From positions 31,178,368 to 31,242,367 of the forward strand of contig CP099841.1 in assembly GCA_030062745.1 (NCBI GenBank): DNA of 64,000 nucleotides, given 5' to 3'. How positions within the stretch are numbered: the first letter of the stretch is position 1; every line of letters begins with the position of its first letter. The translations under genes and the position numbers were made by a program. Source of the stretch: Capitulum mitella (Eukaryota > Arthropoda > Thecostraca > Pollicipedomorpha > Pollicipedidae). Under the pieces are notes generated by a model. It saw only the letters and a list, made by a program, of their open reading frames with translations. It had not been told where the DNA came from and did no database searches. Positions 4,721-53,835 of the stretch are shown piece by piece.

Positions 4721-4818
4721 CTTGTTTGCTCAGTACGGAGCGATTGAGTCGGGTCGGCTGGGGCCGCGGGCTGGCCGTTGTCTGCACCATGACGAGCCGA
4801 ACCTCCCCCCGCCGGCAG

Positions 4819-4936
4819 GAGGACGCCGTTCACCAACAGCGAGGACGACAGTCCGGCGACGATCCTGCGCAGGATCGGCGAGGGCCGGCCCGACCTGAGC
4901 TCCGGCAGCTGGACGTCGGTGTCGGCGCCGGCCAAG
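4819..4936 (+). CDS. Rsk: p90 ribosomal S6 kinase (RSK), exon encoding late C-terminal kinase domain
   Basis: RSK is a MAPK-activated Ser/Thr kinase with two kinase domains that acts downstream of ERK in cytoplasm and nucleus. This exon is part of the C-terminal (CaMK-type, autophosphorylating) domain. Translation begins in phase 2 (one base finishing a Gly codon) and reads RTPFTNSEDDSP, then ATILRRIGEGRPDL and SSGSWTSVSAPAK, 39 whole codons. From memory it aligns with vertebrate RSK [23 protein letters not shown]...WNSVSDTAK, i.e. the segment after the DIWSLGV helix (kinase subdomains IX-X). The acceptor CCGCCGGCAG follows a C-rich tract, and the donor AAG|GTGGGT is strong. It joins in phase 0 to the exon at 21756, which starts with [10 protein letters not shown] as expected. 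The donor is duplicated 18 bp downstream. Preceding exons are not in the window. Confidence 0.93.
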
Positions 4937-4966
4937 GTGGGTCCGCCGGCCAAGGTGGGTCCGCCG
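4931..4966 (+). promoter_or_regulatory. Rsk: Duplicated Rsk splice donor (18-bp tandem copy)
   Basis: The 18-mer GCCAAGGTGGGTCCGCCG occurs twice in tandem (4931-4948 and 4949-4966). It contains the exon end and the donor, so identical GT donors lie at 4937 and 4955. Use of the second would add 18 nt in frame (VGPPAK) between the AK of this exon and the DLV of the next, with no stop. Confidence 0.9.
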
Positions 4967-7102
4967 GACGGGCCGCCGTCCCACGTTCGCCGGCCCGCTG
5001 CCGCCGGCGGCGCCGGGCGCTGACGTTTTAGTCGCTCTTGTCGGCTGGACGAGGCTGCGTGCGTTGTGTCTCGTTTCTGTCCGTCTGTCGGTCGCACCTG
5101 TTTTCGCAGGGGAGTCATGCGGTTCTGCCGTCGGTGCATGATAGCAGAATTTAATTTACACGTGCCGTCTGCTCCACTTCAGTGATGCTCGCCGACTTAA
5201 TGCCGTCGCTTAACGCATTAAGCTCCCTGTCCATGCCACGGAAAATTGCCTGCCTCGGCTCATTTGGCCGCTGGCGGTCGGGCGCGGTGTCGCCGCTCTT
5301 TCCTCGCGCCCCGTGAGCGCGGCCGTTCTCGCCGTGCTGGTCCGGGCTCAGCTGATTGTCGCCCCGCCGGCCGGAAACGGCGTCCGGCCGGCGGGGCTGT
5401 CTGCGTAATTGGACCGGAAATGGATGCACGCGCGTCCGAGAGGCGTCCACGTGACGCTGCCCGGGCCACGGCTCCGGCTGGGCCGAGGGACCGGTGATGA
5501 CGTGGGCCGCCGCCGCCCCCTCACTGGACCGCCTCCTGGGTGCTGGGTCGGTGTGGGAAGCCGAGACCTGCCGGCGCTGCTGAAGCCGTGCAGGGAGGAC
5601 GGCAGAGAGACGTGGGATTGCTGTTCCGATTCCTAAGACTTACGAGAGCATCAGAAGTGGTGAATGTGGAGGTTGTGGAGTGATGTTCTGTGAGTTGCAG
5701 TTAATTTACTGCGAGGTTGAACAACTGCTTCTCGCGGAGCCGGCAGGCGCCGAAACGCGGTTGGCTTCGGATTTGTGGAATTCCTCGATCTGCCGTATCG
5801 TTCGAGATGACGTGACAAATTCTCTGATCTTGTTCGGTTTAATGACCACCAGTACCATGGGTTCCGTGCTGTTATCATGGCACGTTTCGAAGTGATAGTA
5901 ATTCCGGCTTTAACATCACGACTCGTCTTTTTCTGTATAGATGGTTTGTGTTCGTTGCATTGGATTTGGCAGCTTTTAGCATGAGTTAAAAATAATGACA
6001 TCAAGTTGTTGGCACTTAATGACAGCGATGTGCGGTGTTTTGCAATTGAAGAAATGGGTCGCCCAGGTCGCTGATAGCTGAATTACTACACAGTACAACG
6101 TTACGGCTACTCACGTATTCCGAATACTTAAAAACATTGGCGTGTCGTAGCGCGTTAATGCAGTTCGACGTCGAAGCTCGAGACCTGGTGTTCGCAGCAG
6201 AGCGATGGTGAGCCGTTTGCCAGGCTGAACGCCGCAGCACTGAGCCGTAGCGGGAATTGTTCTCAGGGCGGCGACCAATATTCAATATTGGCCGTCTGGT
6301 TCGGCTCAGGGCACGTCTCGATTTATGTTATTGCCTGGTAATCGGGAGATAAATTCGGGACCGGCCATCGACCGGCCGACGCCAAGTGACGCCTGGTAAC
6401 AATGGCGCGACCGTTTCGTCCCGGCGGCCCGCGGGTGTCGGTCGCGCTGGCTGTTTCCGGCCGGCATCTGCGCGCCGCGGCGGCCGAGCCCGGGCCGGGG
6501 CCGGGGGCTGCCGCCGCTCGGTCACGTCGGCGGTTTTTAGACGGCCCCGGCCGTTTCTGGACCGCTTGTTATCTGTTCCGGTCAGCGGCGACCGCGGCCA
6601 GGATCACGCTCGGCCGCGCTCCGGAATCGCTGCAAGAAGTGCGCGTTGCCTTTGACGTCATAGCGCGTCTGTCAGGAGGCAGTCGCAGAATCTTCTGCGT
6701 CAGTCTCCAGCCTTCGCACAAACGGTGTCATGGACCCTTCTCTCGCTTTACGCCGCGAAGGGAAGTTGAAAGGCCTAGCAGCGGAATCGAATGCTTATTG
6801 TTCCTCAACAACAGGTTACTGCTTGCACGTCATAAGCGTCCACCATAAGTTACTAGAAGCCGTCTGTAAAACAATCCCATTCTAGCTTCGCCTTTACGAA
6901 GACTTGAGGCATGGCTGATTGAGATGCTCTCCGATCTCTGGCCTTCCGTGAAAAGATGTTTGTTGTTAAGCAAGTCCAGAAGATTGGGTATTCCTTTGAT
7001 CCGCAACACTGTTATGGGTGATTGTTTCTGGCAGAATGACAAAAAGCCAGGATTTCGGTGAGGTCCATCCAGGTCAGGTCATTGGTGTTATTTATTGATT
7101 AA

Positions 7103-8305
7103 CCCTATTCCCGGCAGGGGGGGGCGGAATCCGCCCCCCCTCGGGTTTTTTGCTTAGCCGATTCCAAGGCTTTTTAACGCAGCTTCACGAAACTTGGTCA
7201 CTTTTCCTAGCTATTCTTTCTACGTGCTGTGACAAAATTTCAAAATCCTATTTTGCTCAGGGGCGGAGCCAGGCAACGTTTTTGGGAGGCACCTCATGCC
7301 ATTTTTGGCCATGTTTGAGGGTAAAATGAAAATGTCTGCCAAAAACAGAGTTTTAAAGCTAGAACTTAAAACTTTATATGGATGTATAGCTAAATAGTTG
7401 GGCAATGTGCAGATTTAATTTTGTTTATCTGAGATCATTTTACAAGGTCAGGTCAAGGTCCAAAGTCAAAATTTGTTTTTTTGCAATAGTTTTGGCGCCG
7501 TTTTTTCAAATGCCAAACTCGGAATATAAATGACGTAGAAGGGTGCCTTCTACTTGTATACCAAGTTTCAGCTTGATATCAGGTCGGGTCACGGAACTAT
7601 GACCTAAAATGCCAGTGCGCGTACCCTATATCGCAATAGCCATAAAATGATTTCTTTTAAACAGAGTGAATTCAAATGATTGAAAACGTTTGCAGATAAT
7701 ATTAAATGTACACGAGGTCATTTCAAGGGACCCCAAGGTCACTGGAGGTCATTTAAGGTCAAAGGTCACAAGTTGATCTGAGAAACGTGTGACCGTGACA
7801 GTTCCCCCTTTTTCATGTCCTTGGCACCGCCTATGCTATCATTATACAAACATTGTAATGCGATTTGTACTTCTTTAGTACAACATGACTAGCAGAAGCC
7901 AAAAAAGGGTGTTTGCCTCTTTTGTTCATTCATTTGTTAGAAAACTAATCCTCCTATTTTTGAAACCCTGTGAACGCCCATCAATTTTCTCAAAATTTCA
8001 GATTTGCGGGCCCATGGTAAAAGTCCTATCCATAATCTCTCGATTCATGCCAGTTTCATCGAAATCGGTTCAATAAACAACGGAGTTATAAGAAGTCCAA
8101 AAAGTACCCCCCATTTTGACATTCCCCCTGTATCCACAAATTTCAAAATTTTGAATTTTTTTTATAAAAATGTAGTTCACGTCACGGCAAATCGATTGCC
8201 GTTTGTTGCGATGAAATCGGACAAGTAGTTCTCGAGATCTCAGGGGGGGCCGAATCCGCCCCCTGCCGGGAATCGACCATACCGTCTAGCCCTCCGGGAA
8301 TAGGG
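7103..8305 (+). mobile_element. TTAA MITE family 1, copy A (piggyBac-like, non-autonomous)
   Basis: The element is flanked by TTAA at 7099-7102 and 8306-8309. Its termini are CCCTATTCCCGG and the reverse complement CCGGGAATAGGG. The TTAA target with CCC...GGG ends is the hallmark of the piggyBac superfamily. Near each end is a G/C palindrome (GGGCGGAATCCGCCC type). It is 1,203 bp long and has no transposase frame. It carries a perfect DR1 (AGGTCAAAGGTCA) at 7756-7768 and further AGGTCA half-sites near 7445 and 7735-7750. It lies in Rsk intron 1 in sense orientation relative to copy C. Confidence 0.88.
7756..7768 (+). promoter_or_regulatory. DR1 nuclear-receptor motif in MITE copy A
   Basis: Two AGGTCA half-sites are separated by one base. 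This is the consensus recognised by RXR/USP- and HNF4-type receptors in animals. Function here is unproven. Confidence 0.55.
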
Positions 8306-8310
8306 TTAAA

Positions 8311-8430
8311 TTACGTATATGCATACATATATATATGTGTGTATACATTAGTATTATATACGTATTGATATATATATATATATATAGATATATATATATA
8401 TATATATATGTATATACACGTGTATATAAT
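8311..8430. repeat. TA-rich microsatellite
   Basis: Interrupted (TA)n directly abuts the right end of MITE copy A. Confidence 0.95.
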
Positions 8431-11400
8431 AGCAAAAGATACGATTAAAAGGCGTTCGTACAAAAGTTTCTTAAAAGAGATGCAACTGTCTCAGACGTGG
8501 CAAGGCAGAGCATTGGTGGTCCCGCACCGGACAGGACTGAACAGTAACTGTAGACAGCCGGCCGCGACGCACTGCACCGGCCCAATTATTCAGGCTGTCC
8601 CTATTTCGTCGTTGGGGGCGGTGCAGATTCGATTTGGTGTGGCCGTCGATTGCGTCGATCGACACGCGCCGGCGAGGGGCCCGCCGGGCCGCCCGGCTTC
8701 CGGTTCCGCGCCAGACCGGCCAGGCTCCCAGTCACGGTGGAATTGGCACACATCCCGGGCGGAGCAGTCCGGTGCACGTGGCGGTGGGCATGGTGATGCG
8801 TCGAACGAACTCCTCGAGAAATGTATGTAATGATGGATTGAGGGTAATGATGGACTGATGTGCTAATGTTCGTGTGATTACAGTTAAAAAAAAATGCCAG
8901 GAATTCCCGAAGAATCGTTTGCAGTAACTCTTCGCTCCCTCCCAAACCGAGAAGCCAGCTCCGAAAATGGAAAATTCCGTTTGGCTAAACGTTAACGGTG
9001 TCATTGCGATGCTGGCGTGCATAAGCGCACAATGCTATTACAACTGAGTGGTGGTTAATGAGTGCAGTGGTTCACGTGTAAACGGGGGAATTGTTCCGAC
9101 CGTTCGCAACGGGCGCTGGAGGCTGAACTCTAGTGGTAGTATAACCCGTTTTGCATCGATGTGCTGCGGCACAGCATACCAGTACAGTTAGAAACGAGAA
9201 CGCCATGGCTTCCCCTGCTTGCAGCACACAGATGCTTGCTGGTATGCGGAAGGTTCTGGCATGTATTGGTTCTGACCATTTCTAGTTTTCTGATTAGCTT
9301 TTCAGAGTAGAAAAGTAGATGGTTGTTTGCATAGTACATATCCCAGTCTCAGCGTCGCAGCCACATTTTTACGGGGGAAAATGTAGTAAAGGAGCACTGT
9401 TGGTCCGCGCATTACGGTATAGCATTCATACTGGCCAAACAAACAGAGAGGAGGTCGAGCAGGGCCTGGTCGAGGAATTTGAGGATGCGGGTCAGGTCGT
9501 CCAGCCTGGTATTCCAGTTGCACTTACCTGCTACGATATTGTGAAAATAAAATCGCGGAAGATCTGCATATACCTTAATGTAGCCCCTAGTTTCGTTTAC
9601 TTGTTTGTATGAAGTGGTTTGCGACGCGAAACTGGCCGTTTTTAAACCATGCATGTTTGCCCTGAAACGACTTTCCCCACTGTTAACCTTTTCTTGAACC
9701 ATCGCGTCATTTAGATCTTACACATCTACGTTTTGATTCCCGTCAATTCAAACGTGGCCCTGCATTTTGTCCCAGATAGCCTCATTAACCTTAAGGTGGG
9801 GTTTTGGGCTCACAGATGTACCAAGAAAGCATTTTTATAGAAGCGGAGCCAGGTCTGCTGGAGCATGTCGTTAATGCTCAGTTCGGGAGATAAATGTGGA
9901 CTGCATAACAACGTGCAGCTATATGATGCATATGAGAACCGTATGCAACATGCAGCAGAGGAAATCGCACAGTAACATCATTTAACATAATGCAATTCCC
10001 TCGCACAACCGGCCGGAATAACTTGACCTTATCGAGTGTTGTTCTACCACGTCTTTTTCGTGCACTGCAATACTCATGAAGTCGACTTGCGCGAAACTGG
10101 GAGTCTGGCTAAGCCAATGATGCATGTCACCATGTTACTGCAGTGCTTGACTGGCCGTGTTTCTTGGGAGTCCAGGGACACCTGAATGATTTACAGGAAC
10201 AATTTCAGGTCTTCTGGTGTTATTCGTACGGTGCAGGTGGATCCATACAGTCTTTCTTTGCTCCAGGATATTAATTGTGCGACCTGTGTGGTGCGTAGCG
10301 ATCACATTCCGAACAGAGACCGGAAATTTCCGGACAGGATCGTCCGTGACACGTCTACAATATGTAACAAGAGGCTCACTACCGTTTCTTTGGTGGATTT
10401 GCATTCATCGGCGAGTATCGAGACGAGACTATGCTCCTCTCGTTGTTCCTAGCCTCCCAAGTCACTAGCGTGTGCAAAGTAATTTGTGAGTTGTGTGGAA
10501 GGTAGAGGTGGCTTCGTGAGCGATAGGGACTTCAAAAAATGATGGTATTGTGAGATGCGTAGGGATGCCAAACACTGTTACTTGCAAGTACAAGACTGTA
10601 GACATCTGCACTGTGCGTCATGATCAATAGATTTACATTTTCAGCATTGGAATAATTGCGAGAAAAATCACTAATGGTAAGGATAAGACTGTGAATGGAC
10701 GAACAGTGCTTGGAAGGAAAACGCTGCAGGCATGTGCTCTCCGCGTCATGACCAACTATTTTGATTTTGGAACATTGGAACAGACGAAGGGAAAATCAGC
10801 AATGGTTAGGATAAGACATTGTGCGAACAGAGCACATTTCTGCCATTTTTCGTGTGCAGTATTGGTTTCTGGTCTACGTTTGTCTTCGGAACTAGGACGA
10901 CACGTCTACTCCGTAAATTCTTCATGGCGGGAAATCGAATGCAGAAATACTGGAAACAAAATGCCAGAAGCAAAGTAGTGGTCAGGATAAATACGAAAAG
11001 CAAAACATCGAACAGGGTGTCGACAGAGATGAACACCAAACGGGGAAATATCGTAGGGCAAAATATTGAATATGGATAACTGTCGAATAGCGATATTTAT
11101 TGTAATGGAAAAGTATTGCCGGACAAAATATTGGATGAGCAAGAAATCAATGTAAGATATAAAACTGAAAAATACGGACCTCAATTAACATCCAAACGGT
11201 AAAGTGCCGAATTACAGAGTATCGCGAGGTCATACATTGTATCATAGCATCGGGGACGAGTATGACGTATGGATGGATATAAAATGACCAACTTTTGCAT
11301 TGGAAAATATGGAGTGGAACAATATGTGATAGCTTAATATATCAAAGGATGAAGATTATTCCCGAACATGGGCCTGATGATGAGGAGATTAAGACTTTCG

Positions 11401-11971
11401 TCTGTCGTGATCACTGGCGGAATTCAGGCCCCGGTTGTTCGAGATTTTCCCATTCCTTCTTCCTAAGCTGAGAGTGTTGTTGGCAGATGCGGTCATCAGC
11501 GCGGGCCGCCGGAGACCGACGGTTGTTCTACGATTCTTGTATCCGAGACGCTCCGGGAGAGAACATTTTCCAGCTCACTGCTGTGCGTTTTTACCAGATG
11601 GAAGATCCTTCGCGGCAGTAATTACAGCATATCCTCAAAAGACCACTGGGAAAAGAGGAACGGATTTTTTCGACACCTAGTACTCGAACCCCGCATACTC
11701 TGTGATGCAAAATGTCATTATTTTTGCATCAGGTCCAGTGGCGCGACCAAGATATTTGTCTGGTCGGTTCGGTTAAGCAACCCGTGAATCAACCGAGATA
11801 TTAAGTTCAGGGAGTAGTAACTAAACGGTGAAGACGCTTGAAGGTTTGTGTAAGCCATGGGAAACTTCGTCCAGGTACCTGCTGGGATGTCCCCGTACGA
11901 TTTCCGGGAACGGTCAGTGCCGTGCTCACCACGTTGCTCTGTCAGTGGTCTTGCGGTGTTTTTCCATGTAA

Positions 11972-13182
11972 CCCTATTCCCGGAGGGTCTAGACGGTATG
12001 GTCGATTCCCGGCAGGGGCCGGCGGATTCGGCCCCCTGAGATCTCGAGAACTACTCGTCCGATTTCATCGCAACAAACGGCAATCGATTTGCCGTGACGT
12101 GAACTACATTTTTGTAAAAAAAAACTCAGAATTTTGAAATTTGTGGATACAGGGGGGGGGGCAAAAAAATGAAAATGGGGGGTACCTTTGGATTTCTTAT
12201 AACTTCGTTGTTTATCGACCGTTTTCGATGAAACTGGCATGAATCGAGAGATTATGGATAGGCCTTTTACCATTGGTACAGACATCTAAGTTTTGAGTAA
12301 ATTCATAGGCGTTTACAGGGTTCCAAAAATAGGATTAGTTTTCTAACAAATGAATGAACAAAAGAGGCAAACGCCCTTTTTTTGGCTTCTGCTACTCTTG
12401 TTATACTAAAGAAGTACAAATCGCATTACAATGTTTGTATAATGATAGCATAGGCGGTGCCTGGGACACGAAAAAGGGGAACTGTCATGGTCACACGTTT
12501 CTCAGATCAACTTGTGACCTTTGACCTTAAATGACCTCCAGTGACCTTGGGGTCACTTGGAATGATCTCGTGTGCATTTAATATCATCTGTAAACGTTTT
12601 CAATCGTTTGAATTCACTCTGTTTCAAAAATTTCATTTTATGGCTTTTGCGATATAGGGTACGCACACTGACATTTTAGGTCATAGTTCTGTGACCCGAC
12701 CTGATATCAAGCTGAAACGTGGTACACAAGTAGAGGGCACCATTCTACGTCATATGCATTCCGGGTTTGGCATTTGAGAAAAACAGCGCCGAAATTATTG
12801 CGAAAAAACAAATTTTGACTTTTGACCTTGACCTGGCCTTGTAAAATGACCTCAGATAAACAAAATTACATCTGCACATTGCCCAACTATTTAGCTATAC
12901 ATCCATATAAAAGTTTGAAGTTCTATCTTTAAAACTCTGTTTTTGGCAGACATTTTCCTTTTACCCTCAACATGGCCAAAAATGGCATGAGGTGCCTCCC
13001 AAAAACGTTGCCTGGTTCCGCCCCTGAGCAAAATAGAATTTTGAAATTTTGTCACGACACGTCAAAAGAATAGCTAGGAAAAGTGACCAAGTTTCGTGAA
13101 GCTGCGTTAAAAAGCCTGGAATTGGCAAGCAAAAAACCCGAGGGGGGCGGACTCAGCCCCCCCCCCCCCACCGGGAATAGGG
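11972..13182 (-). mobile_element. TTAA MITE family 1, copy B (inverted)
   Basis: This is the same element as copy A in reverse orientation. It starts CCCTATTCCCGGAGGG after GTAA (11968-11971, one mismatch from TTAA) and ends CCGGGAATAGGG before TTAA at 13183-13186. It is 1,211 bp and keeps the G/C palindromes and the DR1 (reverse, TGACCTTTGACCT, 12515-12527). Similarity to copy A is high over most of its length by eye. It lies 3.7 kb from copy A in the same intron. Confidence 0.87.
12515..12527 (-). promoter_or_regulatory. DR1 nuclear-receptor motif in MITE copy B
   Basis: TGACCTTTGACCT is the reverse complement of the perfect DR1 found in copies A and C at the corresponding place. Confidence 0.55.
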
Positions 13183-13544
13183 TTAAATCTTTATCTGGTG
13201 GGTTATTGATCCCATCCCCGATATTTTGTCATTCACTTTGCTGTCATTTCGTATATAGCCAATCATTACTTATGCTGCTTCGATATTTCTGTTGACCGTT
13301 TTGCATCCGATTCGTTGTTTTTTGTTTTGTTCAACGAAACATTGGCTTTTCACATTAATTTCCTGATCTTTATTTGATGTCCCATATTGTCCCGTTTAAG
13401 GTGTACTACCGTGGTTATTTACTTTGTTTGATGTTTTGTATTCGTTGACTTGCTTTCAACATTTTCCATTTGATATCATACTGTATTATGCGCTGTAATG
13501 GAACTACGGATGTCAACGCCTTTGGTTTCTACTTGTAAGAAAAT

Positions 13545-13620
13545 GACTGGTTTGGGACTGTTATTATTTTGCATCAGGAAATACTGGTTTGGGACTGTTA
13601 TTATTTCGCATCAGGAAATT
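13545..13620. repeat. ~36-bp tandem duplication
   Basis: Two near-identical units of CTGGTTTGGGACTGTTATTA followed by TTT(T/C)GCATCAGGAAAT stand side by side in AT-rich intron sequence. Confidence 0.85.
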
Positions 13621-15039
13621 ATGTAGGCCATGTGGGGTCAAATATCAGGCCATTTTGCGCTTCATTTAACTCAAGTATATTGGGTTGGTTGGGTTTAAAC
13701 GAGCTTATGCCTCATAACAAGGCAAGAAGTTGTGAAAACGGTCATTTTTAAGGCAAAAATGCGTGGTTTAAAAGAAGTTTATTCTTCGGAAGCAGACCAC
13801 TTAAAAACAGGGCAGTCATGGCTTCCGGGATATTGCTGCATAAAAATAGCTTTTTCTAGACCTCGTTTTTCTGTGTCTCTAACGTGCTATGTGCTCAGCC
13901 TTTTCCCCCTCATATTTCGACCGCATTGTTTTGGGCTTTCCCGTTATCGGTGTTATCGCAGCTTAAAAAATGTTATCAGCATATGCCGTTTGCATACACT
14001 TCCAGTGGTGATTAAAGCAGACGAAAAATTGTTTTACGAGGCATTTGTGTATTTGGAAAAATCTGATGTCTCCACAGAAGACCCTGGTTTTATTGCATGA
14101 GCGTACATATGTAGTTTACATGGTTCTTTTCTTAGCATGCATAACCCTGCGTTTGTAAACACTACCACCGAGTGATACAAGCGTCGCTGAAGAAGTGGAT
14201 AGACGATGCATTTTTCCAGTGACTGCATTTGAAAAACAGTGTTAGGTCTCCTTGGAAAACACTGTATTAGACTATGTGTTCGATCATTCCATCTCCCCCT
14301 TACTCAGTTTTGCCTTTACCGAGGGGCTGGTGATTCCACTGCGTGGTCTGAGTCCCCATCGTTGTCTTTTTAAATCTTAGTGGCTCATTACGTTGTCTTT
14401 TAAAATTTGTGTTTCTGTTTATTGACCTGCAGCGCATAGAGTGCCTCCAACTTCGCTTGTAACCATTAGCCAACGAGAAGGCCTGCTCTTTTGTCACAGG
14501 GCATGCATGAAAACGTCGCCAACGATGCTGAGGTGGAGAAAAAACAACGAAGTGCTCAAAATTATTCTGTGTGTTGTCATTCCATGCGTTTTTTTTTCTC
14601 TCATTTGATTACGACGTATTATTCGCGCCGTGTTCGCATCCCGGTGTTCTACGTGCGCTATGAGTATGAAACCGGGAAGCAGACCTGGCTAACGCGTTAT
14701 TCAGTATGATTTTAGGAGGGCCACCGGTTCGTGCCAATCACTTGAGCACAGTGGGAATTCTAAATGTCACATTAATTGACATTTTCTGAAACCCGAAGGG
14801 TGTTTGGTCCATCAGTAAGTGCCCTGGATACTGCAGCCGCTCACGGGCACTTGTGCTCTCAGTGAGTGGTCGATTGATGAGGGCGCTGGCCCCCACGTGG
14901 GTCAGTAGGCGGTCAGGTATCACTTGGACTTGTGCGGCGGGGACGCGTCATAAACATAACGGTCACGTCGGAATGGCGGGCCGGCAATGTGCTGTGCGGA
15001 TAAAGAACGTATGGATTGCGTGACGGCCCTACACCCCGA

Positions 15040-15760
15040 GCACAACAGGGTCCGAAGCTCCGGGTGTTGCGCGCAAATCTGTTATCGCTCAGCCCGAGTT
15101 GAACGGGAGCCAGGGGCGCAGGCTTCGACTTCCCCCCGCCCTGCGTCAGACCGGGCGCCCCGGCGTCCGGGGCGGCGGGTCGGCCGGCGCCGCGCCGCGC
15201 CGCGGGAGCGCCGGCCGAGATGAGCCGGCCCGGCGGCGCCGCCCGGCCGCTGACGGCCCGATCGGCCGGTCATCGATCTCCGGCCGCCCTGAATGGACGC
15301 CGGCCGGGCAGGTGCGCCACTTCCGCCGCCACTGCTTCCGACGCTGCCACGATCTGACGGCGCCGCGACCGGCCCTCCCGGGGAGAGCAGGAGGACCCTG
15401 TCCGCGATCCGGTCTAGTCTGACGGGCTCCGGTTCCTGCCTGGTCTGTGTGGCCCGCCGTTCGGCTCGCCGGTGGTCTCCGGCCCGGTCTGGTCTGTATG
15501 GTCCGCCGGTCTGCCCGTTCCGGCCGGCTCCGCTGCGGGCGGCGAGACGGCTGGCGGCGCTGCCAGATCCGGCTGCCGTGACCTTGCCCTTGCCGGCCGT
15601 TTGGCGGCGGTCGCGTTTTGGCGCGCCGCTGGCTGGAGCCGGGCCCTGACGGATGACCCGGACACGGGCACTGTTGCGGTGATCCGACTCTCGGCCCGGC
15701 GCCGCCCGCCGGCGATGAGCCGGGCCGGAGCGCACGGGCGGGGAGAGGAACGAAGGTAGA
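15040..15760. other. GC-rich island in Rsk intron
   Basis: This island is very GC-rich, with long stop-free frames on both strands (one of 299 codons on the minus strand). The translations are Arg/Pro/Ala-rich without a domain. I read it as a compositional island and not a gene. Confidence 0.6.
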
Positions 15761-15900
15761 CACCGCCTGGTCGGTACCGCCACGCAACAGTGAGGCGCCA
15801 CCGAACGTCGTGGCATCGTGCCGTGCTGCGCGGCCGCGTGTAACGGTTTTGTACTTTTATTTGTGCAAGATATATTGAAGACGTCTTCTACATGTTTTAA

Positions 15901-17100
15901 CCCTCGGCTAGCCGGGGTGGGGACTCTTGAGTCCCTCCGGTTTCGTGAAGATGGCCAGAAAACGAATAGATGCAAATACATGAAACTGGGAGTACCTTTT
16001 CATACGTCATTTTTACATGTTTGGTTAGCTTTTGTACTTAAGACTGCCTCAGGTCACTGACCCAGAACAGGTTAAGTAAGACTGTTCCAGAAAAGTAAAG
16101 TGCCATTACGTTTTGTCAAAGGTATCGATCAGTTAAAAACTTGCTGCAGTGGCAAAGCACGGCAGATACAACAGTTCTGTTATATCGAATTTTTCGGAAA
16201 TGTCAAAGTCAAAGTGACTTTAGAACAGCTAATTTTTTGGCCTTTTTGCGCTATCAGTTGGGATTGTGAGCCTTGTTCAACGGTTTTGAAGTTTGAATGT
16301 ACGCCCTGTTGCTTCTCCTCACGTCCTTTGTAAATATTACTGTACTTTTTGGCCTGTGAAGTGAGGTCAGGTCACGTTTTACTCCAAATTTTCAGATCTG
16401 AGACCGAATATAATTAATCAGATTACAGCCCTTCATTGTTTATCAGTCGCCGTATGCGCTTTAAAAACACTGATATGTGGTAAGGACTTGTTTTCCAAGA
16501 TTGGCCTAATCCCACGTCATGTAGTGTCTGATCACTGGAAATGCGGCAGAGATGATACGACATATATCAGAAACCCGGACTTTTATGCATCTGAATTTCA
16601 CCTAGGTTGACCTTGTTTGACCTTAGTATGACAACTGCAGGCTTTATACGCATCCTAAACACATTTGCGGCGTCATCTAGCCAAGACAGTTTTTGCAATG
16701 AAAAAAGCTGTTCCTGACCGTACGAAAAGGAAATTTTTCGTTCGCTTTCGGTGTCGTGAAAAATGGCCAAATTGGCCACCTCGGGTGCTCTTTTACCGCA
16801 CAGAATAGGTAAATCGGCCTTCTTCGTACGTATAATCTCTTTGGAGTCACGTAAACTGCTTGATTATCACACTTCTGCCAAAAATGCCAAATACGATTTA
16901 ACCTAAGGTGACCTCTGGTGACCTCAATATTGGCCTGATGTGGCTAAATCTGGGTGCTTTCGTTTGTTTTCGCCTAGACCTTTCCAGTGGTCGTTTTTCT
17001 TTTCCTGTGTGACGTGTGGTTTTCGAGATCTTGATTAGTTCTCATGACCCCCCTTCCCCCGACCTGACGAAGGTGGATCCGAATGCCGGTCCGGCGAGAG
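15901..17100 (+). mobile_element. TTAA MITE family 2, copy 1
   Basis: It starts with TTAA (15897-15900), then CCCTCGGCTAGCCGGGG and a subterminal palindrome GGGACTCTTGAGTCCC. It ends near 17100 with the family signature of GAGATC, a CTCATGACC box and CCGGTCCGGCGAG, and the right TTAA has decayed. No transposase frame was found. It is rich in TGACCT/AGGTCA words, for example TTGACCTTGTTTGACCTT near 16608. Its terminal organisation is the same as in the copies at 25191, 32666 and about 46190. Confidence 0.7.
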
Positions 17101-17989
17101 AAATCTTGAGGAAAATAATTGATAGATATCAGGCAGGTGCTTGGCAAGCCAACGGAAAATGTCTCAGCATTGGATTCCAAGCTAAAGTTAGATTATACCA
17201 GATTATATCTGCTGCGGTTGGCAGGTTCTGCCTGCGCTGGCACCACGTTGAACAGGCATTTGATTGCCTCGGCGCATTGCCAAAGGGCGAGCGGTTGTTT
17301 AACCGCCGACCCCGAGCAGTCCTCTGCTCGTGAAAGACAGCTGGAAGTGTTTTCCTGTGTCGAGTTACAAGCGACTTTAACTGCCTGTGTTCCGAACTTC
17401 ACAAGCATTAATGGACTGCTTCGGTGCTCGCCGTTTTCTTGTCCAATTTTCAGTAGCATGCAGCCTCGCACTCGTTACTCTTGAAATAAACGACGAATAA
17501 ATGCAATAACGGGCATACGTCACCGCCACCGAATTAATTGTCGATATCCCTGAGGCAGTATTACCGTCTCCGCTGGGCGGGAAATACGGTCGTCGGAAAG
17601 TATCTCGCGTCTGCGTACGTAAGTCATGGCGGGAAATTACGGAACGTATGAATAACGTGCTTGTCTGAAGCCGACATTAGGGTACCGGAAGTCCAGTGTG
17701 GCGGTGGGCGGTCCCTTGGGCCTCACGGCAGTGTCGGTACGGAAGTGTGGTAGACCAGCGGCACCAGAGATCCCTGAATTGGCTCGACGCAGGAGCTCTA
17801 CGCCGAGGACGTCTCGGCCGCCTGTTTCCGGAGAACGCGTCACTACGGACGTTTCCGTGGGCTACTTTTTGGAAGCGCAATGTCCAGAGCACCTCGGCGT
17901 GGACTCGACCCGGGAAACACGGCACCGGGGGCGTCGCGGTCGGCGTAGTGTGGAAAACACAGACGTTGGCCGTCCGCGAAGCTGCCAGT

Positions 17990-18395
17990 GGGTGGATGGA
18001 GAGGCGGGTAGGGACCGCGAAGCTGTCGGGCGGTTGGAGACGTGGACAGGGACTGCAACGTTGTCGGTGGGCGGTTGGAGACGCGGGCAGGGAGCGCGAA
18101 GCGTTGTCGGTGGGGCGGTTGGAGACGCGGGCAGGGAGTGCAGCGTTGTCGGTGGGCGGTTGGAGACGCGGGCAGGGAGCGCGAAGCTGTCGGTGTTCGG
18201 TTGGAGACGCGGACAGGGAGCGCGAAGCTGTCGGTGGGCGGTTGGAGACGCGGGCAGGGAGCGCGAAGCTGTCGGTGGGCGGTTGGAGACGCGGGCAGGG
18301 AGCGCGAAGCTGTCGGTGGGCGGTTGGAGACGCGGGCAGGGAGCGCGAAGCTGTCGGTGGGCGGTTGGAGACGCGGGGAGGGAGCGCGAGCCGGC
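17990..18395. repeat. 41-bp GC-rich minisatellite, about nine copies
   Basis: The unit contains GCGGTTGGAGACGCGGGCAG, then GGAGCGCGAAGCTGTCGGTGG. Nine occurrences of TTGGAGACG are seen. The central units are nearly identical, while the 5' units differ by small indels. The period is not a multiple of three and the unit has no stop codons, so several frames stay open through it and give a false 361-codon protein. Confidence 0.95.
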
Positions 18396-18507
18396 CGGCC
18401 GGCTGACATGCCGCATCCTGGCCGCCCCCGGCGGCGTGCGGCAGCCGCGCCGAGACGCGGTCGCCGACGCTGGCGTCTCTTCAGCGAGCTTAAGGGACCT
18501 GGAAATA

Positions 18508-18587
18508 GCGCCGGGCGGCGCAAAGGTCAGGGCGGCGCGGGCCGGTCGCGCTGCGCCGCACAGTCTGACCTTTGCGCCGCCCGGCGC
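18508..18587. ncRNA. 80-nt perfect-arm hairpin in Rsk intron (function unknown)
   Basis: The outer arms 18508-18530 and 18565-18587 are 23-bp perfect reverse complements (containing GGCGCAAAGGTCAG and CTGACCTTTGCGCC). An inner 7-bp stem GCGGCGC/GCGCCGC (18532-18538 and 18553-18559) leaves a 14-nt terminal loop. The size and shape are those of a small-RNA precursor hairpin, but it could equally be an unexpressed inverted repeat. Either strand would fold. Confidence 0.4.
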
Positions 18588-20912
18588 CGTCTGCGGCGGC
18601 CGGCCGCCGGTCTGCGGGCGGCCGCGGTCTGCCGGCCAGCTGCAGGCGGTGCGCTGGTCTCCGCGGCGGCCGGCTGTCAGACCGCCTGCCCCAGGCTGCG
18701 GCCAGCCTGCAGGCGCTGATGTTCGTCGTGGCCTCGTTGGGACCCCTTGGCTTTATTTTGTGAAGTTCCCCGCCAGTGCCTGAGCGGCTGTCGCTGTAAG
18801 CACGTCATCCCCGTTATGACCGTCATCACATCGCCGGAGCCCAGCGTGGGCCTTCTGGATAGCGATCAAACCCGCCGACCAGACCGTCCTTTTACTCGTT
18901 CGTCTGGCTGACCAGACTGACTTGCTTCGTCGTCTGTGCCGCCGACCAGACTGCTGCTGGTCCGCACGGCCGGCCAGACTGGCCTGCTTTGACAAACGCT
19001 CGTGAGGGGCGTGGTGCCGACGTCATTGCGACGGCCGGCTGGTGTGATTTCGGGACCTTATCTTCATGGGAAAAGTTTTTGCCTGGACCATTGGACGTCC
19101 GCATTTACCGCCTGGCTATTGGCGCTGGAAATAGAACGGGGACGCCGTTTGCCGCCAATTGATGGCGGCTTTGTGTCGGCAACTTTATGTGGACAGATAA
19201 TACTGTATCTTGAACGAGGCTCCGACTGCGGCGATAATATAAACGAGCTCAGATGGATTGGTTCCTGGTGTATTTTCCCGGTATGTTGCCGTGGTGTTAA
19301 AGCAGGGGCTCAGTCACCGGCGCCGCATCTGCCGTTCCGCGCCACCTTTTGTTCACCGTCCTTCGGTGCGGAACGTCAGTTTTCAACGCGTTTCGCGGGT
19401 ATACATTGCAGCCCAACAGGAAAATGAAGTTCCTGATCTGTGCGCAAACACTGGCCTGATAGACTGCGCCGCTTTCCCCGCAGTGTAGCGGAACGCACGT
19501 GATCAGGCGGCTGTTGACTCGCGCTGGACGTATCGATTGACCACCCCACTTCTCCGCTGGGCGGGCTGGAGAAGCTGAATATGGCTGCAGCACGCGTAAA
19601 AAAGAAACACGTGCAGGTGGCAGAGCATGTGTGGCGAGTAATCCTTTTGACGGTGCAGTAGTTAGCGGTCTCGTAAATCATCCAGCATGCCCTCAACAAC
19701 GGCGTATGAACGCACCGACATGGCAGGACCTAGGAAAGGGAACAAAGAAAGTTTGAAACGTTGGCAAATAGGACATGACGTCGGTTGTGACGGATTTTTT
19801 TGTCCCTGACTTAATGTGTACCGGAAATGAGACAAGAAATGTGGGGATGGCATCCATACATCCCCCTGAGATGGTAAAGGTTACTTCTCGCACTTGTCCG
19901 TCGATGGTAGATTCTGTCTGTGGTGGATTTATCGCTGAGAAGCCTGTTTCGCTTGCAACTGAGCGTTTTTGGGCCATTTATCTCCGAAACTCAGAAGATG
20001 TTTGGTTTTGGCTATCCGACTACATGGGATGTAAGTATCATTTACTAAAGAAGAATTCCATTCATATCAGTATGTTTTGCCTTGCCTCGCCATCCTTTTG
20101 CATCTGAAAGTGTCTTTATGCAGCAGTGATGACTTATCCTTGTCGCAATTGGGAAAAGAATGTGTACAGTTTTCATTGGTATTCCATATAAATATAAAGA
20201 CGCTTGTGATGCTCTGAATGTTCGATGCGTTCAGAGAACCTTTTGACCAAATTTGGATTTGATGAGAAGTAGATGACATTGTCCATTATTTTCTAAAGGA
20301 AGGACATTTCCCACCGCGACATCTGAACATACTTTAATATCGTCATATATGTCGTATTGACGGGGCTTTCAGAGCAATCTCCCCTCACTTGAATATGTTT
20401 GCTGGCTGAGGAAAATGGCTTTGGTTACGTATACCGCACATTCAGTACCATTATTGCAAGCCAAGTTTTGCCTATGACCGACTGGCCTGTCCCCTGGCCG
20501 CGTCAGCTCTTACATTGGGCGTCATTTTCGGCGCACGATCGATGAATACTTTACGATCAGCCGTGCGGGGATTAAATCGTTGCCGTATCAAACTGCTCTG
20601 TCCCGCTAAAACCAGTGGCAGAAATGGGCGCCGGGCGGCTCACGGGCCGCGGCTATTTCGGTGCGGACGGCCCGGTGACCAGGCCCGCTCAGGTCGGTCG
20701 TCACGCCGGCCGACGTGACGCCGAGCGTCACGGCCCGTCACCGGGCGCCGGCCGCCGCGGCCCGTCCGCCCGATGCCGGACGGCTGGCTCATGCCTGTCT
20801 CGCCCGTAATCCCGCCGCTGTTGGGCGTCACCGCCGCGTCCGTCGGGCGCTGCGACGCGGCCGGTTCGGTCGGCGTCGGGACTGGTGGTCGCCGACGCGA
20901 GCTCTCCGCGTC

Positions 20913-20940
20913 ACGTCACGGCGTCGTGATGCCGTGACGT
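20913..20940. repeat. Small inverted repeat
   Basis: The 10-bp arms ACGTCACGGC (20913-20922) and GCCGTGACGT (20931-20940) surround an 8-nt loop. They sit in a GC island with several further CGTCACG/CGTGACG words. Confidence 0.75.
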
Positions 20941-21480
20941 CGTGATGCCGGAGACGCCGGCCGGCCGCCGTCACGTCGCTCGTTGCGATCGACGCCGGGT
21001 CCCCTGTTGGTCGACGCCGGGTCGGTGCCGCGGACCGCCGCTCCCCAGCACCGCAGCGCGTAATTTTAGCACTGTTATTGTGCCGCAAAACCAATGACAC
21101 GTTCAGGTTCTCTCGTGCCAATTACTGGCGCTCAGTGATGTGAAATGGCCCGTACCCTATCAGCTGAAAGGCAGACAGTGCCCGGCATTATTGCGGACTG
21201 CGCGGTAAGCAGTGGCCGCTATCGCGGTGGCCTGCCGTGGACTCGTCATCAAACAGTGGCCGGTATGACGGTGTGGTGCAGACTCACCGATACACAGTGG
21301 TCGGTATCGCGGGCTCGCCGACAAGCCCGGCACGGGCAGCGCGGCTCCGGCTAATCTGCTAATGAAGCAGGTGTCGTCGACGGCGCGAGTAGGCCGCCAT
21401 CAGCTTGATAGGTGGTCCGGCTCGCCGGGAGCCGAGCGAGACGGCTGCGCAGCTGGCGCCCCGGCCCCGGTGTCTGTTGG

Positions 21481-21755
21481 AGGACCTGGTGCGTCAGACC
21501 CTGACCGTGTGTCGGGTGTCCGTCAGAGGACCTGGTGCGTCAGACCCTGACCGTGTGTCGGGTGTCCGTTAAAGGACCTGGTGCGTCAGACCCTGACCGT
21601 GTGTCGGGTGTCCGTCAGAGGACCTGGTGCGTCAGACCCTGCCCGTGTGTCGGGTGTCCGTCAGAGGACCTGGTGCGTCAGACCCTGACCGTGTGTCGGG
21701 TGTCCGTTAGAGGACCTGGTGCGTCAGACCCTGACCGTGTGCTGGCTCTTTTCAG
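21481..21755 (+). repeat. 46-bp minisatellite built from the Rsk acceptor/exon edge
   Basis: AGGACCTGGTGCGTCAG recurs at 21481, 21527, 21573, 21619, 21665 and 21711 (period 46 bp), then at the real exon start 21754 (43 bp later). Each unit ends in a TCCGTCAG- or TCCGTTAG-like acceptor followed by a copy of the first codons of the next exon (DLVRQ), then ACCCTG(A/C)CCGTGTGTCGGGTG. So six decoy acceptor/exon-start units precede the true exon. Confidence 0.93.
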
Positions 21756-21899
21756 GACCTGGTGCGTCAGATGCTGCACGTGGATCCCGGCCAGCGCCTG
21801 ACGGCGGCTGACGCCTTGCGACATCCCTGGGTGGTCGGCCGTGCCACCCTGCCGGACGTGCGGGTTGGCCTTGCGACGCCAGACCTGCGCTCAGTCAAG
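21756..21899 (+). CDS. Rsk: p90 ribosomal S6 kinase (RSK), exon encoding end of C-terminal kinase domain
   Basis: Its 48 codons in phase 0/0 read [19 protein letters not shown], then [15 protein letters not shown] and end PDLRSVK. This is the subdomain XI signature of the RSK C-terminal kinase domain: vertebrate RSK2 reads [27 protein letters not shown] with a following LVKGAMAATY (from memory). The conserved Arg of QRLTA and the HPW motif are present. The acceptor CTTTTCAG is good and the donor is AAG|GTGTGC. It follows exon 4819-4936 and precedes exon 28220-28345. The 5' edge has been amplified as a 46-bp array, and the 3' edge (DLRSVK plus donor) is repeated 71 bp downstream as DLRSVR. Identification is firm. 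The exact donor choice is slightly less so because of that duplicate. Confidence 0.95.
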
Positions 21900-28219: not shown

Positions 28220-28345
28220 GCGGCGATCTCGGCCACGTACCGCGCCATCAACCAGAGCGCGCACACGCCCAACCTGGGCCCGGTGGCACTGTCGGAGCTG
28301 GCGCGGAGACGGCGCAAGTCGCGCCGCTCCTCGTCCGACGTGTAG
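28220..28345 (+). CDS. Rsk: p90 ribosomal S6 kinase (RSK), terminal coding exon
   Basis: It has 41 codons plus TAG (28343-28345), phase 0. It starts AAISATYRAINQSAHTPN and ends SELARRRRKSRRSSSDV. Vertebrate RSKs end (G)AMAATYSALN...LEPVGRSTLAQRRG-, so the ATY motif of the autoinhibitory C-terminal helix is kept, followed by (L)GPVALSELA and the LA-R-R basic ERK docking motif. The very end, SSSDV, replaces the vertebrate ST-L tail but still fits a class I PDZ-ligand pattern (S-x-V); that reading is inference. The acceptor is CGCCCGCAG|GCG. The exon is very GC-rich, like its surroundings. No AATAAA was seen just downstream, so the 3' end is not placed. Confidence 0.93.
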   Translation, partial: AAISATYRAINQSAHTPNLGPVALSELARRRRKSRRSSSDV

Positions 28346-43871: not shown

Positions 43872-44090
43872 AGGGCCGAGCCGGTCAGAGGGAAGAGGCT
43901 GTTCAGAGGGACTTTGTCAGCTGGGTGATGCTGATCAGAGGGACTCTGTCAGCAGGGCGGGGCTGGTCAGAGGGACTCTGTCAGCAGGGTGGGGCTGGTC
44001 AGAGGAACTCTGTCAGCAGGATGGGACTGGTCAGAGGGACTCTGTCAGCTGGGTGGGACTGATCAGAGGGATTCTTTCAGGAGGACGGAG
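43872..44090. repeat. 32-bp minisatellite, about six copies
   Basis: CAGAGGGACT (or one-base variants) recurs at 43904, 43936, 43968, 44000, 44032 and 44064, exactly 32 bp apart. The unit reads CAGAGGGACTCTGTCAGC then AGGGTGGGGCTGGT. Confidence 0.95.
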
Positions 44091-52100: not shown

Positions 52101-53350
52101 AAGTTTCACTTCAGTCTTTTTTGTGCAGTATGTCAAAACGGCTGCGAGTTTGGCAGATAAAGTAAGGCCGGTATCTCACCCAACTAGGTTGACTTTAACC
52201 GGACATTTTAACATACTTCTGATGCATAATACTGTGACCTTTAATTAGGTACCCAGCTGAAGGCTCTAAACCGAATATATGGTGCACGAAATGGTGTCAG
52301 TTTTTCCGACGTCGTGGTACACGTTCGACGTGACCTGTGACGTTCTGAGTCATGTGACCAGAGCCGACGTAACATTTTCTGAATCGCAAGACTCAGGGTT
52401 ATCGATTGATGGTAGACCGGCTCAGATCCGACGGTTAGATCCTCAGATAACAGGGGTGCCCTTTTTAATCAGGAATCATCAGCCAATTTGCTACTTTTAA
52501 CACAAACCTTTTATCAAGAACCGATCTGCATATCATTTTCGGCCTTTCTGTTTCCCGAGTGTACTATGTGGGGGTGTAGACACCGAAAGGCCACAGAATT
52601 TACGTTCACAAATAGGGTCTTTGTGGTAAGCAACGCCACACATGGCTTAGGGGAACAAATAATCCCCCTTCCATGCGTTTTTATTTTTGTCTATCTCCAT
52701 TGTATTTGTGTGTGTGCTTTCCTTGCAGAGGGGCACCTGCAACATTTCTCTCTTGAAGGTGTGCAAGACATTAGAGCTGGTCTGTTCTCAGTAGGTCATA
52801 AAGAGAGAAACTAGATGCTGGAGCATTAACATTCGCATTTGTGGACGTCGTCAAGCAGTTTCTGCGTTAAACTAGCTTCCGAAATGCCTTTTGATGGGTG
52901 AAAAATTGAATTACGTCACCAGGACCAACCGAAACAATGCGACGTGGATCAAGGTGGCCATGATGTGCTCTTTTTCTGTCATTGTGAGGGGCTACTGTTC
53001 TCTACCGTCTACCAGTCTATGGTGTCCGCTTTTCACTCAACTCAGTGTAAATCATCCTTACGCACTTTCGTCACTTTTCGGAGCCGTTTTGGACCGCTCT
53101 CCGACCTTGCGCAGAGCGGCTTGTCAAGCTCAAACCGGTCCTGAATACCTCTGAATGCCTTGAATGACTGTGCCTGGCCCAGCCTTGAGCAGGTTCCGTG
53201 GATATGCCGGTCCCAGCTGCCGACGTAAGCACCGCCTGTCGGAGGGTAATATTACCCGTCTCCACATCGGTTAAGTTATAATTGTTATCTCGCGTACAAA
53301 CCGAAATGACCTGTCATATTTTCAACCATGCCGGTACAGGTGGAAGGTTG
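48989..53350 (+). other. Intron or intergenic sequence downstream of the secreted-protein exon
   Basis: It contains a GC island (49980-50800) with a TATA-like box, and AT-rich sequence with scattered GGTCA words. No coding exon was identified. Confidence 0.45.
50616..50623 (+). promoter_or_regulatory. TATAAATA at the edge of a GC island
   Basis: A TATA consensus lies immediately downstream of a 600-bp CpG-dense island, followed by ACGCGCCGGC. It could be a core promoter on the plus strand. No gene downstream was recognised. Confidence 0.2.
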
Positions 53351-53835
53351 TTGAGTTTTTGGAATTTTTTTGCAAACCACCCCAGAATAATTGTTCTGAT
53401 CCCCCCAAAATTTTGTGTAGCTGGGTTAACCTTATCAAAGAGCTTCTAAAAATTTAAGATCAATGCTTTGACATGTAACCGACCTTTGACCTCTTTATCG
53501 AGAGTTGAAGGAAGGAAGTTGAGTTTTTGGATTTTTTTTGCAAACCACCCCAGAATAATTGTTCTGATCCCCCCAAAATTTTGTGTAGCTGGGTTAACCT
53601 TATCAAAGAGCTTCTAAAAATTTAAGATCAATGCTTTGACATGTAACCGACCTTTGCCTCTTTTCGAGAGTTGAAGGAAGGAGTTGAGTTTTTGGATTTT
53701 TTTTGCAAACCACCCCAGAATAATTGTTCTGATCCCCCCAAAATTTTGTGTAGCTGGGTTAACCTTATCAAAGAGCTTCTAAAAATTTAAGATCAATGCT
53801 TTGACATGTAACCGACCTTTGACCTCTTTATCGAG
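53351..53835. repeat. 165-168-bp tandem repeat, three nearly identical copies
   Basis: Units start with TTGAGTTTTTGGA at 53351, 53519 and 53684. Each contains CAAACCACCCCAGAATAATT, GATCCCCCCAAAATTTTG, GGGTTAACC and a final TGACCT. The copies differ by only a few bases. Confidence 0.97.

Follow-up and report, generated by a model that had tools for sequence, protein, structure and literature searches.

Minisatellites that run across exon-intron boundaries, known as mirages, have been described in lancelets, where they occupy Adh3, the globins BflGb6 and BflGb9, troponin C and PGBD5 (PMC3087553, PMC3902484). According to excerpts of these two papers, lancelet mirages are reported to leave splicing intact, their units are 10-72 bp long in Adh3 whereas those of the globins span 150-160 bp, either end of the intron may be affected, and many units, though not all, keep an AG or a GT. 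A length that is unstable from one haplotype or tissue to another is a further trait of the class. In humans, as related in part of a secondary source, the IFI6 (6-16) gene holds a minisatellite of repeated splice donors, some of which are used for isoforms (Turri 1995 via PMC4526556). For potato, the excerpted account of an RdRp gene describes a tandem duplication that carried the branch site, the tract and the 3' splice site (PMC4974935). A search of open-licence papers for boundary-spanning minisatellites in arthropods found none, the cases described being from lancelets only. Here we describe such an array in an RSK gene of the arthropod Capitulum mitella, whose genome gave 150 matches of PF00379, the family of the arthropod cuticle domain. 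Its tandem unit spans an intron-exon boundary (27-30 intron and 16 exon bases) and is of minisatellite size and present in several copies (46 bp x 5.9), as in the lancelet mirages insofar as the excerpts describe them. We read it, at a probability of roughly 0.8, as a mirage-type minisatellite that would have arisen by passive duplication of a boundary module and whose last copy would be the one spliced. The structure would then be one already known from lancelets, and its occurrence in an arthropod would be new.

The window, by which we mean the whole 64,000-nucleotide stretch of DNA analysed, contains several exons of this gene. Window positions 4793-4942 match RSK2 (8xey_A) at residues 217-254 (phmmer, E 1.4e-6), and the exon at 21756-21899 matches the C-terminal kinase domain of the same protein from residue 255 (E 2.1e-8), bearing out the gene identity proposed by an earlier sequence-only reading. 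Because the two exons are adjacent in RSK2, the intron between them is of phase 0, and splicing is predicted to join them across 4937..21755. The start of the upstream exon is placed at 4819 by the CAG just before it (acceptor score 5.73) and should be taken as probable. Further parts of the gene were picked up by motif searches in the 70 kb preceding the window, namely motifs pointing to one N-terminal kinase exon, a linker exon and one more exon of the C-terminal kinase; ten long open reading frames of the window had no match in Pfam. All splice scores come from acceptor and donor matrices that were not trained on this species. The features on which the argument depends are as follows.

4819..4936, plus strand: upstream RSK exon (C-terminal kinase domain, TPFTNSEDDSP...SAPAK), from the phmmer match to RSK2
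4926..4967, plus strand: duplicated donor, GCCAAG/GTGGGT twice, so that the exon ends at 4936 or 4954, from TRF and scores
4937..21755, plus strand: phase-0 intron of 16.8 kb, flanked by exons for adjacent RSK2 residues
21469..21482, plus strand: leading partial unit, intronic part only, from the TRF array start and the sequence
21483..21528, plus strand: unit 1, 46 bp
21529..21574, plus strand: unit 2, 46 bp, with the decoy acceptor CAG/AG/GACC ahead of it (scored)
21575..21620, plus strand: unit 3, 46 bp, with TTAAAG ahead
21621..21666, plus strand: unit 4, 46 bp, CTGCC replacing CTGAC; its acceptor is in frame (+135 nt) but meets a TAG
21667..21712, plus strand: unit 5, 46 bp
21713..21755, plus strand: unit 6, 43 bp, with the 16-nt exon copy, CTGAC, the pyrimidine tract and the true CAG (sequence and scores)
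21731..21735, plus strand: putative branch point CTGAC; the A, at 21734, precedes the first exon base by 22 nt
21754..21755, plus strand: AG of the true acceptor (CTCTTTTCAG/GACC), score 9.46
21756..21899, plus strand: RSK exon ending ...SVK, then AAG/GTGTGC, from phmmer and a donor score of 7.72
28220..28345, plus strand: probable terminal coding exon of RSK (AAISATYRAINQ...SSSDV, stop), from motif search and reading by eye

The array lies in the intron, directly 5' of the exon that starts at 21756. TRF delimits it as 21469-21741 (period 46, 5.9 copies, 95% matches), and by its sequence it consists of six head-to-tail units (21483-21755). The 15-mer GACCTGGTGCGTCAG occurs at 21483, 21529, 21575, 21621, 21667 and 21713 and again at the exon start, 21756, with spacings of five times 46 and then 43, and a search of both strands found it nowhere else in the window. 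The six units of 46 bp claimed by the sequence-only reading are thus correct in number, five of them having that length and the last measuring 43 bp; its placement of the true junction at the seventh copy agrees with the exon start at 21756. The part identical to the exon amounts to the first 16 nt, which are exact in all six units. Past these, nine of the next 16 bases match the exon, a level reached by 1.1% of random 16-mers from the window and near chance. An exon copy of 27-29 nt was considered and set aside on this ground, even though an alignment runs that far; the bases beyond the sixteenth read better as the intron's own branch-point region.

A full unit therefore comprises 16 bases equal to the exon start and 30 bases of intron (27 in the last unit), the intron part running from CCCTGACC... 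through a pyrimidine-containing stretch to an AG. Each unit had been said to carry a (T)CAG- or TAG-like acceptor. An AG does immediately precede GACC in all six copies, but the bases ahead of GACC are CAGAG in three and GGAG, AAAG and TAGAG in one each, so that a CAG or TAG stands two nucleotides further up in four copies only. The original proposal that the array grew from the edge of the exon is supported. Every unit carries the 16 exon bases, and a local alignment of unit to junction scores 38 (2000 shuffles: mean 14.6, SD 2.5, maximum 29). We read the repeat unit as a complete 3' splice site together with the first 16 exon bases.

From this anatomy we infer that slippage or unequal exchange produced a tandem duplication of a segment of some 43 bp, comprising 27 bases of intron and the first 16 of the exon. 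The intron part of that segment would have held the branch point, the pyrimidine tract and the AG. The upstream copies would have become intronic, grown by 3 bp, acquired a weaker tract and then been amplified, while the most downstream copy would have retained branch point, tract and AG. The protein would have been left undisturbed because the duplicated segment carried the whole 3' splice site. With minisatellites as abundant as they are here, duplications covering an acceptor are to be expected; complete modules would leave a working acceptor and a full exon and so persist, and incomplete ones would break the gene. Such a survival filter would account for the common anatomy of the units without any function. 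The 16-nt copy is exact in every unit although the remaining bases show slight variation, a contrast not required by a purely neutral history.

Splicing would be expected to take the last copy, which has a strong tract, a branch point of its own and the complete exon behind it. The true acceptor (9.46) ranks 19th among the 3344 AGs on the plus strand of the window, whereas the decoys score from -0.92 to 2.82, the best of them ranking 663rd. The 26 nt before the junction AG are free of AG and contain only two As, at 21728 and 21734; the latter lies within CTGAC, which is the only good branch-point motif of that stretch and is located in the last unit. Taking CTGAC for a branch-point motif appears reasonable in this genome, as the frequency of CTRAC in 80 other acceptors is 0.0091 per site in the interval -45..-15 against 0.0018 in -120..-45; it occurs in the nearer interval at 20 of the 80, so that most acceptors are without it. 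With respect to frames, the arithmetic given earlier (46 being 1 mod 3, successive upstream acceptors enter the exon in different frames) is correct, as is the finding that the acceptor three units up adds 135 nt and meets a TAG. The copies 135 and 273 nt upstream are both in frame and both meet a TAG, and the remaining four copies, together with the four CAG or TAG sites two nucleotides further up, all reach stops. Any tested upstream acceptor leads to a frameshift or a stop, and use of an upstream copy would do the same to the transcript. Choice of the last copy at RSK is thus what ordinary signals predict. Since the true site is far stronger than its decoys and has a private CTGAC, the suggestion that the cell must specially discriminate the last copy here, or else tolerate noisy splicing, finds no support.

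The other end of the same intron is also touched by a tandem repeat, one that the sequence-only reading did not mention. The donor duplication at 4926-4967 (18 bp x 2.3, 100% matches, TRF) offers two donors 18 bp apart and in frame, the second adding VGPPAK; both score 9.66, a value reached by only 6 of 4137 GTs. A special link between this duplication and the acceptor array was entertained and dropped, since arrays cover 7.5% of the region and two touched edges in one gene are therefore not clearly beyond chance. This cover was measured over 134 kb around the RSK gene; around 50 kinase loci, minisatellites cover 6.25% of the flanks as against 1.3% of matched exons. Further large tandem arrays occupy 17975-18389 (41 bp x 10), 43897-44084 (32 bp x 6) and 53342-53835 (168 bp x 3), and no link to an exon was seen for these three.

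A survey of exon starts elsewhere in the genome sought the first 20 exon bases in each exon's own upstream sequence, up to about 300 bp. Its input was 97 exon-start pieces, 77 from kinases and 20 from myosins. The kinase set began with 50 loci, from which 13 spanning the whole domain or nearly so were left out, and the 37 kept were joined by 40 further pieces; matches interrupted by a stop were passed over. Thirteen of the 97 pieces had no acceptor above a score of 3 and were dropped, leaving 84. An own upstream copy at 17/20 or better was present at 4 of these 84 exon starts, in three gene families and with RSK not counted, in a survey that is small, confined to kinase and myosin exons, and based on exon starts called by score and not by annotation. 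Mismatched pairs reached at least 17/20 in 3 of 6972 comparisons, two of which set the GSK3 loci against each other, and the opposite strand did so in 0 of 84 (Fisher P 6e-7; Poisson P 8e-6 with the two GSK3 loci counted once). At 14/20 the excess is weaker, 5/84 own against 78/6972 mismatched, which indicates that the signal sits in near-identical copies. An earlier survey set had given a copy within 600 bp at 3 of 35 exon starts. Two more RSK exon starts of the window, D and F, were put through the comparison and had no upstream copy. The third mismatched match (18/20) pairs the L101 exon start with sequence upstream of the L097 exon; these are probably paralogues, or perhaps the match marks a further array.

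The four loci with copies vary in what they offer the splicing machinery. L048 belongs to a GSK3 gene (E 1.3e-45 for the best match) and has two upstream copies, a 60-bp unit and a CTGAC 22 bases before the AG. Its nearer decoy and its true acceptor are identical at 8.03, with equal branch-point distance, and the in-frame decoy reading meets a TGA. L052, assigned to GSK3 by matching sequence, has the same exon start and one copy 62 bp up, with a poorer CCGAC and a decoy of 5.18 against a true site of 7.02. Both GSK3 loci (L048 on C9, L052 on C7) thus share an array on the acceptor side; because the two loci agree in the exon copy but have diverged in the intron part, the array may be older than their split. 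At L049, which is MRCK-like (E 7.4e-53), several degenerate copies of the exon start lie at about 1261-1518, and the true site scores 3.98, below one decoy at 7.57. A donor-side mirage considered at this locus was dropped as an intronic minisatellite at which the score had called a false donor. L070 is a myosin exon, again with CTGAC before its true acceptor; its single copy, 56 bp up, has no AG before it and is therefore a copy of the exon start and not a decoy acceptor. By eye, the exon copy at the four loci is 15 to about 35 bases long, and a branch-point-like motif follows within a few bases of its end. Among the myosin heads, several exons for one and the same profile stretch (about 377-440) were seen at C16:5450234-5453643, C15:16425920-16428593 and C14:17197973-17199021, and these are probably mutually exclusive exons.

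Acceptor strength cannot decide everywhere, being equal in L048 and higher for the decoy in L049, and at these two loci special discrimination or noisy splicing may be needed. Exon definition is a ground for preferring the acceptor nearest to a complete exon and its donor. Such proximity is the likely answer to how the last copy would be used where copies are equal.

Recurrence of this kind bears on the rival explanations. An array produced or inflated by the assembly, a concern raised from the outset, has a precedent in one lancelet mirage that was aberrantly assembled in the draft genome (PMC3087553, excerpt). Nothing at RSK suggests an artefact, however: distinct variants separate the units, the array measures less than 300 bp, the exon has a single full match in the genome at 100%, and like arrays stand at unrelated exons, all of which makes this explanation very unlikely. 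The sequence-only reading had also asked whether the shared 15-mer might belong to a dispersed repeat. In the 477 Mb searched (16 contigs), a two-unit query gave four alignments among the matches listed, all at the RSK array locus, which is strong but not absolute evidence that the array is no dispersed repeat. Least credible of all is an unrelated minisatellite that resembles the exon start by chance. The 7.5% cover of the region means that, judged by position only, an array meeting the edge of some exon is no rarity, but the 16 exon bases recur unchanged in each of the six units and always in register with an AG, and these facts, with an alignment score of 38 against a shuffle maximum of 29, come close to refuting it already.

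Decoys might sometimes be used, yielding stop-containing RSK transcripts that are degraded, with the copy number tuning RSK output. The AG before GACC in all six copies, the stops that end every open frame from them, the three decoys that combine a CAG with a CTGAC 23-29 nt, or a CAGAC, upstream, and the identical decoy in L048 would all suit such regulated or poison splicing. We nonetheless regard it as improbable, given decoys of at most 2.82 against a true site of 9.46 and given that chance alone would place stops in frames read from intron sequence. Very doubtful, and about as much so as an artefact, is the view that the array marks the beginning of an intron or exon gain, in which units turn into small exons or are taken into a new intron. 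A model of this kind was proposed for the lancelet globin mirages (PMC3087553, excerpt), and a tandem boundary duplication made an intron in potato (PMC4974935, excerpt). At RSK, by contrast, no unit is an open in-frame exon, and the sole visible change to splicing is a working acceptor downstream of its copies. An RSK paralogue was sought as an outgroup and rejected, since the only other exon match (C5, minus strand, 50% identity over 36 aa) is by eye a different kinase.

Passive duplication of the boundary module remains the reading we favour. The same anatomy at other exons argues for a by-product over a device specific to RSK, and in a genome so rich in minisatellites the arrays seem to have formed repeatedly as a side effect. 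A broader proposition, to which we give slightly less than an even chance, is that acceptor mirages form a common and ongoing mutational class here, affecting roughly one sampled exon start in twenty, with units bounded on their 5' side before the branch point and each event shifting the acceptor one module downstream and leaving a decoy, possibly one as strong as the true site, as at L048. The reason for a boundary just 5' of that point would be that the gene survives a duplication only when the 3' splice-site module is copied in full. If this is true, introns of this genome repeatedly test how the spliceosome chooses among like acceptors and would be a source of stop-containing transcripts. 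The arrays in any case may serve as natural experiments on 3' splice-site choice, with a clear difference in strength at RSK and identical rivals at GSK3. They also carry a risk for annotation, as a gene caller could begin an exon at a decoy.

Placed beside the systems described above, the RSK array is closest to the lancelet mirages. Splice signals are kept in many of the lancelet units, as far as the excerpts go, and here an AG is kept in six of six and a CAG or TAG two nucleotides further up in four of six. The recurrence at several genes that marks mirages is found here as well, at 4 of 84 exon starts in three families besides RSK. The hosts differ, lancelets there and an arthropod here, which suggests that mirages are no lancelet oddity and have arisen or persisted in distant animals. 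IFI6, in the partial account available, is similar as a minisatellite at a splice site offering several sites, but it repeats donors, whereas the 46-bp units of RSK hold acceptors; the donor repeat at RSK is limited to the separate 18-bp duplication at 4926-4967, present twice. The potato RdRp gene, again from the excerpt, likewise has a duplicated segment carrying branch site, tract and 3' splice site, yet it gained an intron, whereas at RSK no new intron is evident and an existing one has become longer. To the mirage picture as given in the excerpts, the RSK array adds the position of the putative branch point within the unit and the differences in score between copies.
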